Below the pieces are notes generated by a model. The model was given only the letters and a program-made list of their open reading frames with translations, ran no database searches and had not been told where the DNA came from. The position numbers were made by a program, and so were the translations under genes. This document shows positions 5,909 to 11,126 of a DNA stretch of 64,000 nucleotides, piece after piece (positions within the stretch are counted from its first letter, which is position 1; the number at the start of each line of letters is the position of its first letter). This DNA is from Haloterrigena salifodinae. Lineage in GTDB: Archaea; Halobacteriota; Halobacteria; Halobacteriales; Natrialbaceae. The DNA is taken from assembly GCF_003977755.1 (NCBI RefSeq), contig NZ_RQWN01000003.1:496001-560000 (forward strand). The letters are read 5' to 3'.

Positions 5909-6105
5909 TCGACGCCGTCGCGCGTGTTCAGTCTAGTTGAGAGTTCGTGTTCATCGATGAGTCGAACCGTTCGTTCCGGACCGAATCGGCGCATCGACGG
6001 GCGGACATCGCGGCGTCCCGTCGCGACCGACTCTGACTTGCCCGCGACTGACCGCAACTCGCCCGCGATCGACCGACGCCGGCGTCTCCGACGGGGCCGC
6101 CGGGA

Positions 6106-9106: not shown

Positions 9107-10039
9107 CTACTGCACGTCGGAACTCGAGGCGCTGTTCAGGAAGTGGACGGCGACGGCCCCCAGCACGAGGTCCAGCGCACCGAGCACCGCCAGCGCGGGG
9201 ACGAGGGTGTTCCACATGCCGCCGAACGCCGACACCTCGAGGACCGTCATGACGTCTTGGCCGAACATCAGGGCGCGGGCGGCGTCGACGCCGTAGGTGA
9301 TCGGGTTGAGCGCGGCGATCGTCTGGACCCACTCCGGGAGCGCCTCGATCGGGACGAACGCGCTCGAGAGGAACAAGAGGGGGAACTGCAACACGTTCAC
9401 GGCGATGATCGTCGACTCCTGATCGCGGGTGATCAGCGCCACCACGTTCGAGATGGCGGTGAACCAGATCGAGAACAGGATGGCGACGAGGACGATCCCG
9501 ACGGCGCCGAGGAACCCGGTCTGGACGTACTCGCCGGGCGAGGCGCCCGTGTCCAGATAGAGGAGCACGTAGCCGAGCGCGAGAATGATCGAGACCTGCG
9601 CGACGATCCGGATGATCTCCGAGAGGGACTTTCCGAGGAACACCGCGCCGCGGTGCATCGGGGAGACGAGCATCTTCTCGAACATGCCGTTCTCGATGTC
9701 GTCGACCTGCCCGATACCGGAGGTCGTCGCGGCGATCAGCGCCGTCTGGATCGCGATCGCCGGCACCAGATAGGTGACGTAGCTCGCCTCCGTGCCGAGG
9801 CTCTGGCTGACGGTCCCCTGCGTGATGCCGCCGAACACCTCCGTGAACAGGACGAGGAAGACGATCGGGTTCAACAGCGAGGAGGTCATCACGAACGGGT
9901 TCCGGACGGTCTTGATCAGCCACCGCTTCAGGACGATCCAGGTGTCCCTGGCGAACCCGTTGCCGCTCGTCTTCCGGCCGCCGGCGGCTCCGGTGCCGGC
10001 GGGTTCGGTTCCGGTTTCGCTCCCCGTTTCGGCGCTCAT
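9107..10039 (-). CDS. ABC-2 type transporter permease
   Basis: A 310-residue integral membrane subunit of a drug-exporter-like ABC transporter. The cytoplasmic N-terminus (WIVLKRWLIKTVRNPFVM) is followed by about six membrane helices, with the ABC-2 signature region around EKMLVSPMHRGAVFLGKSLS and the late pattern FLSSAFVPIEALPEWVQTIA (residues about 215-235) that marks DrrB/NodJ-type permeases. Its start overlaps the stop of the ATPase gene in an ATGA, so the two subunits are translationally coupled. The pair is likely repressed by the divergent TetR protein. Substrate unknown; export of a hydrophobic compound is the usual role. Confidence 0.88.
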   Translation of the reverse strand: MSAETGSETGTEPAGTGAAGGRKTSGNGFARDTWIVLKRWLIKTVRNPFVMTSSLLNPIVFLVLFTEVFGGITQGTVSQSLGTEASYVTYLVPAIAIQTALIAATTSGIGQVDDIENGMFEKMLVSPMHRGAVFLGKSLSEIIRIVAQVSIILALGYVLLYLDTGASPGEYVQTGFLGAVGIVLVAILFSIWFTAISNVVALITRDQESTIIAVNVLQFPLLFLSSAFVPIEALPEWVQTIAALNPITYGVDAARALMFGQDVMTVLEVSAFGGMWNTLVPALAVLGALDLVLGAVAVHFLNSASSSDVQ

Positions 10040-11064
10040 CGGCCCACCTCCGCGGCCGCCGATGCGTCGTCCGGCTCGCCGGTCTCATCCGTCGGCTCGG
10101 TCGCCGCCTCCTCGTCGTCGAGTCCCTCTCCCGTGATCGCGAGGAAGACGTCGTCGAGCGTCGGATCGCGAACGTTGAATCCCGTGACAGGAACGTCCGC
10201 CTCCTTCAGCGCGACGAGCAGCTCCGGCCCCCGCTGCCGGGCCGCCGTCGACCGGACGCTGAGCCCCTCGTCGGTGACCTCGATCGCCGTCTCGTCGAAG
10301 ACGTCGGCCTCGAGGGCGACCTCCAGGGCCCGCTCGCGCGTCTCGTCGTCGGAGTCGCCGAGTTCGACCTCGAGGACGGCGCCGCCGACCCGGTCCTTGA
10401 GTTCGGCGGGTGACCCCGAGGCGACGATTTCACCGTCGCGAATGACGCCGATCCGGTCGCAGAGTTGGTCGGCCTCCTCCAAGTACTGCGTCGTCAGGAA
10501 GATCGTCGTGCCCCGGTCGTTGATCCGCTCGAAGTAGTCCCAGAGGCGGTTGCGGGCCTTCGGGTCGAGGCCGGTGGTCGGCTCGTCCAAAAAGACGATC
10601 GGCGGTTCGTGAACCAGTGCCGTGGCGGCGTCGAGACGCTTTTTCATCCCACCGGAGAACCCCTTGGCCTGCTTGTCCGCGACGTCGGCTAGGTCGACGA
10701 GGTCGAGCAGGTCGTCGATCCGCTCGTCGCGGTCGGCGCCCGAGACGCCGTAGGCCTCGCAGGCGAAGCGGATGTTCTCGCGGGCCGTGAGTTCCGGGTC
10801 GATGCTGGTCTCCTGGGCCATGTAGCCGATCGACTCGCGGACCGACCGCGATTCGGTCTCGACGTCGTACCCGTTGACGGTGACGGTGCCGCCGGTCGGC
10901 ACGAGCAGCGTCGTCAGGACCTTGATCGTCGTCGTCTTCCCGGCGCCGTTCGCGCCGAGGAAGCCGAAGAACTCGCCCTCCGGAACCTCGAGCACGAGGT
11001 CGGTGACGGCCTCCGTTCCGTCCGCGTACGTCAGTTCGACGTGCTGGGCGTCGATTGCGTTCAT
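10036..11064 (-). CDS. ABC transporter ATP-binding protein, DrrA type
   Basis: A 342-residue ATPase that drives the adjacent ABC-2 permease. It shows Walker A GANGAGKTT, a Q-loop in YMAQETSIDPELTARENI, the signature FSGGMKKRLDAA, Walker B IVFLDEPTTGLDP and the switch histidine region FLTTQYLEEADQLCD (the usual His is Gln here, as in many daunorubicin-resistance-type ATPases). The C-terminal 100 residues carry the DrrA-specific domain ending in DPTLDDVFLAITG. A GTG at 11073 would add three residues; the ATG at 11064 is preferred. The promoter region faces the TetR gene and its palindrome. Confidence 0.9.
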   Translation of the reverse strand: MNAIDAQHVELTYADGTEAVTDLVLEVPEGEFFGFLGANGAGKTTTIKVLTTLLVPTGGTVTVNGYDVETESRSVRESIGYMAQETSIDPELTARENIRFACEAYGVSGADRDERIDDLLDLVDLADVADKQAKGFSGGMKKRLDAATALVHEPPIVFLDEPTTGLDPKARNRLWDYFERINDRGTTIFLTTQYLEEADQLCDRIGVIRDGEIVASGSPAELKDRVGGAVLEVELGDSDDETRERALEVALEADVFDETAIEVTDEGLSVRSTAARQRGPELLVALKEADVPVTGFNVRDPTLDDVFLAITGEGLDDEEAATEPTDETGEPDDASAAAEVGR

Positions 11065-11108
11065 CTCGCTCACACGTTATCGGAGGAAGTGACAAGGCAT
11101 ATAGCTTG

Positions 11109-11126
11109 TGAATGAATATTCATTCA
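11109..11126. promoter_or_regulatory. Perfect 18-bp palindrome, probable TetR operator
   Basis: TGAATGAATATTCATTCA is perfectly self-complementary. It ends one base before the ATG of the TetR gene and lies 45 bp from the ATG of the divergent ABC ATPase gene. TetR repressors commonly bind such palindromes in the shared promoter of the exporter they control. A repressor bound here would cover the transcription start of its own, probably leaderless, gene. Confidence 0.7.

Follow-up and report, generated by a model that had tools for sequence, protein, structure and literature searches.

A predicted TetR operator in the divergent repressor-exporter promoter region of Haloterrigena salifodinae and its conservation among Halobacteria

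In the 64,000-nucleotide stretch of Haloterrigena salifodinae DNA analyzed here (the window), a gene for a TetR-family protein and the genes of an ABC exporter are read divergently from a short intergenic region, which raises the question of whether one small element could govern both. The original prediction placed a perfect 18-bp palindrome by the start codon of the regulator gene, and this description was exact: TGAATGAATATTCATTCA occupies positions 11109-11126, and a single base (11127) separates its end from the tetR ATG (11128). The other features of the locus are collected in Table 1. The regulator belongs to the TetR family by both of its domains, with Pfam scores of 30.5 bits for the N-terminal helix-turn-helix domain TetR_N (cut-off 24) and 51.3 bits for the ligand-type C-terminal domain TetR_C_6 (cut-off 27). 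The exporter ATPase passes the drrA model with 335.3 bits (cut-off 312.45), and the permease is related to drrB, scoring under the TIGR01247 cut-off (106.5 bits vs 223.05) and matching the ABC2_membrane domain. The nearest named relative found for TetR is that of Haloterrigena salina (96% identity), in keeping with a haloarchaeal setting. The nearest solved relative by sequence is 3crj (E 1.2e-37), a structural-genomics TetR-type regulator listed merely as "Transcription regulator"; the two proteins have the LTIQRI stretch of the DNA-binding domain in common but differ in the recognition helix, KSTAAVHYYYD in 3crj and KSKSLIYQHYD here.

Table 1. Coordinates of the features at the tetR-exporter locus (window positions)
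Feature	Position	Strand	Basis
Predicted TetR operator, perfect 18-bp palindrome TGAATGAATATTCATTCA	11109-11126		Conservation
TATA-like box CATATAG, probably for both directions	11098-11104		Geometry at 10/10 TetR/ABC loci
Purine-rich GGAAGTGACAAG, candidate BRE for tetR	11085-11096	+	Haloarchaeal BRE-like position, upstream of box (inference)
TetR-family repressor, 207 aa	11128-11751	+	TetR_N and TetR_C_6 above gathering scores
ABC exporter ATPase, DrrA type, GTG start at 11073	10036-11073	-	TIGR01188
ABC-2 type permease of the exporter	9107-10039	-	ABC2_membrane Pfam

The palindrome might be a functionless product of chance. About one perfect 18-bp palindrome is expected per window of this kind, and four were found: the mean in 100 first-order Markov sequences was 1.07, and 68 of these sequences held at least one. 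Such palindromes are thus not rare in the window, and the weight of the 11109-11126 site rests on its conservation. It is unusually AT-rich for DNA with 65% GC, and an AT content of at least 14/18, which it has, was reached by no palindrome from the 100 Markov sequences. It is also the sole match to TGAATGAATATTCATTCA in the window at up to three mismatches, and none of 100 shuffled sequences gave such a match. The remaining perfect 18-bp palindromes of the window (at 955, 21609 and 32847) are all GC-richer. Against chance stand the half-sites and position kept across genera and families and the backward controls with zero matches, described below, which leave this explanation with a negligible probability.

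The conservation was approached by pattern and from the protein side. Allowing up to one mismatch, the 18-mer was found at 18 sites in 17 of 292 genomes, and its backward control in none of them. A TetR homologue lay within 1.5 kb on either side at 16 of these 18 sites, the exceptions being L002 and L028, and an ABC, MATE or RND exporter or a CARDB gene adjoined 16 of the 18. Counting L026, assigned by ORF resemblance only, as the 17th exporter-type site, L002 is the exception among the 18. The degenerate consensus TGANTGAAYRTTCANTCA occurred in 104 of the 292 genomes and its backward control in 0/292. In the genus g46, multiple operator copies were observed at one tetR locus, as at L026 and L078, with three each in G058, G168 and G229 and two each in G086 and G110.

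The organism's own genome (4.96 Mb) contains exactly three TGANTGANNNNTCANTCA sites, including 11109-11126, and no match to the reversed control. The second is flanked by an MMPL/RND transporter and a TetR paralogue of 47% identity. The third (L002:1501-1518; G000:C7:88693-88710) has one mismatch and ends on the first letter of the ATG of an ORF that matches no Pfam family and, judged by eye, resembles alkaline phosphatases/sulfatases. In a comparison of such ORFs based on the plus-strand rows L066-L068, a site of this type is retained in two same-genus orthologues (L067, L068), and this operator copy may be a possible target in trans. At a locus with an RND gene (L003:1524-1654), a short ORF of about 43 codons was seen by eye directly after the operator, overlapping the RND start as ATGA.

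On the protein side, a search of named genomes that ignored the palindrome returned 13 TetR relatives. All eight relatives with at least 50% identity (L007-L014) had this site, or one nearly identical to it, 1-2 nt ahead of the ATG, and the site was found upstream of none of the five below 50%. Upstream of one 48%-identical Haloferax TetR (L015) there is a different inverted repeat, ACTGACTGACCAGTCAGT, about 20-40 nt before position 6001. A second search gave matches in 274 of 292 Halobacteria genomes. Among the 30 best loci used, one per genome, 28 had at least 11 of the 12 half-site letters TGAnTGA-n4-TCAnTCA within 320 nt upstream, and L051 and L053 had weak sites (9/12); some of these loci are probably from the same species as loci of the first search (for example L014 and L027/L047; L011 and L032/L042), which makes the two sets non-independent. 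Comparison with first-order Markov sequences, 200 for each locus, left 27 half-site scores out of 30 unattained; the score was attained once at L050, once at L053 and 12 times at L051. In an alignment of 26 TetR members, residues K45, S46, S48, L49, Y51 and H53 of the recognition-helix region were invariant.

The transporters beside the operator are of several types. The neighbours at the 30 best loci were DrrAB-type ABC (8), MATE (9), RND/MMPL (5) and CARDB (5), with none or an ATPase remnant at the other three; a CARDB gene followed by an RND gene was found in both loci checked (L078, L079). The exporter is non-divergent at L033, as is the ABC exporter at L041. At L028 (1501-1518; 2091-2846), the regulator near an ABC exporter with the same operator is of the IclR type, and no TetR occurs within 1.5 kb. 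In Natrialba (L008-L010), the operator and tetR are retained and the adjoining ABC exporter is absent or a remnant.

This diversity bears on whether the operator serves tetR alone, as a purely autoregulatory site, with the exporter transcribed from a separate, unregulated promoter. The gene closest to the operator is indeed tetR, and tetR persists with its operator at L039, L040 and L044/L080, where the adjoining exporter is missing or reduced to a remnant; control of an exporter is thus not universal. The distance from operator to ABC start, however, was 35-37 nt in 13 of 13 rows (L032 repeats L011), including L024 and L028, where TetR starts elsewhere; at L024 its start is about 130 bp off. 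At L021 and L022, read by eye, the distance was 36 and 35 nt. This fixed exporter spacing argues against autoregulation as the whole story. So does L078, which has separate promoters with one operator near each start, the second being near the divergent CARDB/RND gene; this arrangement fits the idea that a single operator suffices here owing to a shared core promoter. We therefore regard control of tetR only as improbable. The preferred reading is that the adjacent TetR-family repressor uses 11109-11126 as its operator and, bound there as a dimer, would repress both divergent genes; on the comparative sequence evidence we hold this to be very probable. This part of the earlier proposal, a TetR operator in a promoter common with the ABC exporter, is thus strongly supported by comparison. 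The proposal did not include the occurrence of this operator class at MATE and RND exporters in other genomes, nor the two features of the promoter described next, a box equally distant from both genes and a site on the BRE side of the exporter promoter.

How one operator could act on two genes is suggested by the geometry of the region. The start codons of tetR (ATG) and the ABC gene (GTG) are separated by 54 nt, and CATATAG is centred 27 nt from each. A single TATA-like box thus stands midway between two starts at archaeal distance, and both genes look leaderless from it. The distances were measured to start codons, not to mapped transcripts. Leaderless transcripts make up 72% of the protein-coding ones in Haloferax (PMC4983044), and the accessible text on haloarchaeal virus promoters places TATA at -26 and BRE at -33 to -37 (PMC8707807). 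At all ten TetR/ABC divergent loci examined (L001, L007, L011, L012, L020, L023, L030, L031, L034 and L050), one hexamer of the CATATA/TATATA/ATATAG type lies between the two genes, its centre 26-28 nt away from the start of tetR and 27-29 nt away from that of the ABC gene. These loci cover the genera g1, g2, g9, g47 and g70 plus Halocatena, L007 and L011 being placed in their genus by near-identity, and at least the families f1, f3 and f9. The distance from box to ABC gene is preserved at L011, L020, L023 and L050 although the ABC start codon differs.

A wider tetR-side sample comprised 29 rows in which the end of the operator falls 0-3 nt short of the start codon; the centre of an AT-box was 26-29 nt upstream of tetR in 22 rows by script, or 23 with L030 corrected, and a clear TATA box at that distance was missing in six. 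A one-sided count over the 323 called genes of contig C3 showed a modest rise at 26-28 nt (3, 4 and 3, vs 0-2 elsewhere), in agreement with a TATA position of -27. A midway box at such a distance was found in none of 79 other divergent pairs along 400 kb of the same contig, nor in any of 12 others in the window; since the genes were called by a crude home-made procedure, the search gives a lower bound on how general the single-TATA arrangement is. The tetR side of the box is purine-rich, and the exporter side is occupied by the operator and CAAG, where a second BRE is not evident as a motif.

The same spacing could arise from two separate, overlapping TATA boxes, the equal distances then reflecting back-to-back packing of leaderless promoters. 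The overlapping hexamers CATATA and ATATAG would both fit, and the spacing on the two sides differs by 1-2 nt at some loci; against this, just one AT-rich stretch is rightly spaced for both genes at the ten TetR/ABC loci, and two boxes would have to overlap almost completely. We consider this alternative rather unlikely. Bidirectional transcription from one TATA box, with starts 49 bp apart, has been described in vitro for Pyrococcus in the accessible part of PMC6640164, which makes a shared box physically plausible here.

From the sequence, family assignment, conservation and geometry observed, we infer a switch in which protein binding, start sites, repression of both genes and a ligand would be combined as follows. 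The near-symmetric TATA box would seat TBP for either direction, giving a leaderless tetR mRNA from about 11128 and a leaderless exporter mRNA from about 11073. The operator would then lie at about -19 to -2 of the tetR promoter, in the gap between TATA box and start, where a bound repressor may block polymerase loading and initiation. The TATA spacing thus favors the suggestion, made in the original prediction, that the repressor would cover its own transcription start. On the exporter side the operator would lie immediately upstream of the TATA box, begin at about -36 and overlap the expected BRE by a couple of bases, and the bound dimer would hinder TFB/BRE contacts and hence the entry of TFB. 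A ligand, probably an exporter substrate or a stress-linked small molecule, would free the repressor and lead to autoregulated induction of the exporter. The fuller proposal, in which one TBP site in a shared symmetric TATA box feeds two leaderless genes one direction at a time, and one asymmetric operator silences both (by start-site block on one side and TFB/BRE exclusion on the other) under a code kept across ABC, MATE and RND exporters in Halobacteria, is put forward tentatively, and we rate it at somewhat under even chances.

The genes behind tetR suggest another role for the protein, that of an acyl-CoA sensor of the FadR type, serving the genes for acyl-CoA synthetase and acyl-CoA dehydrogenase that lie downstream. 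The synthetase gene begins 92 nt after tetR, the operator of Bacillus FadR is similar to the palindrome here, and TetR gives a weak match (27.7 bits) to the bacterial FadR profile NF053878. That score is to be set against a cut-off of 200, and the BetI and ScbR models score higher; the synthetase linkage is found only in g1-type loci of the same genus (L007, L030, L031, L036-L038), and neither of the two remaining sites in the genome is at fatty-acid genes, one lying at an RND exporter and one at an unrelated ORF. Family score, gene linkage and genome-wide sites all being against it, a FadR-like regulator is not supported, and we judge this role highly improbable.

Systems in which a TetR repressor and its palindromic operator adjoin an exporter are of an already known kind. 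Divergent TetR-family repressor/exporter pairs include TetR-TetA, QacR-QacA, TtgR-TtgABC and MtrR-MtrCDE, and QacR, TtgR and MtrR chains were among the structure-sequence matches of the TetR studied here. The local repressor, the palindromic promoter operator and the neighbouring exporter are as in those pairs. What differs is the archaeal TBP/TFB promoter with apparently leaderless genes and one TATA-like box midway, and a single operator class beside ABC, MATE and RND exporters. Among archaeal systems, FadRSa of Sulfolobus acidocaldarius, as far as described in the portion of PMC6449355 accessible to us, is likewise a TetR-family protein with a dyad operator and an autoregulatory site at its own start; it responds to acyl-CoA and controls a lipid cluster of 30 kb in which most of its sites are over 130 bp away from promoters, whereas the sites here are at exporter core promoters. 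The Pyrococcus furiosus case (PMC6640164, partial text) also has one symmetric TATA element between two starts, but its output is mainly antisense noise, while here there are two protein-coding, apparently leaderless genes, the arrangement is kept across genera and an operator lies on one side.

In the literature searched, little was found on how haloarchaea switch on multidrug-type exporters and nothing relevant on the operator letters; in the accessible part of a paper on Halorubrum MATE no TetR regulator is discussed, the matches to "tetr" being to tetracycline. As far as this search goes, two points are new: a haloarchaeal operator code that extends across three transporter superfamilies, and a single box at equal distances from two coding genes that both look leaderless. 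The operator code is specific and widely conserved, comes with a predicted regulator and could be tested in a haloarchaeal host amenable to genetics. With its equal spacing, the TATA box would allow a clean test of whether one TBP site in an archaeon can feed two protein-coding genes, and of how a repressor acts on the two sides of the box.
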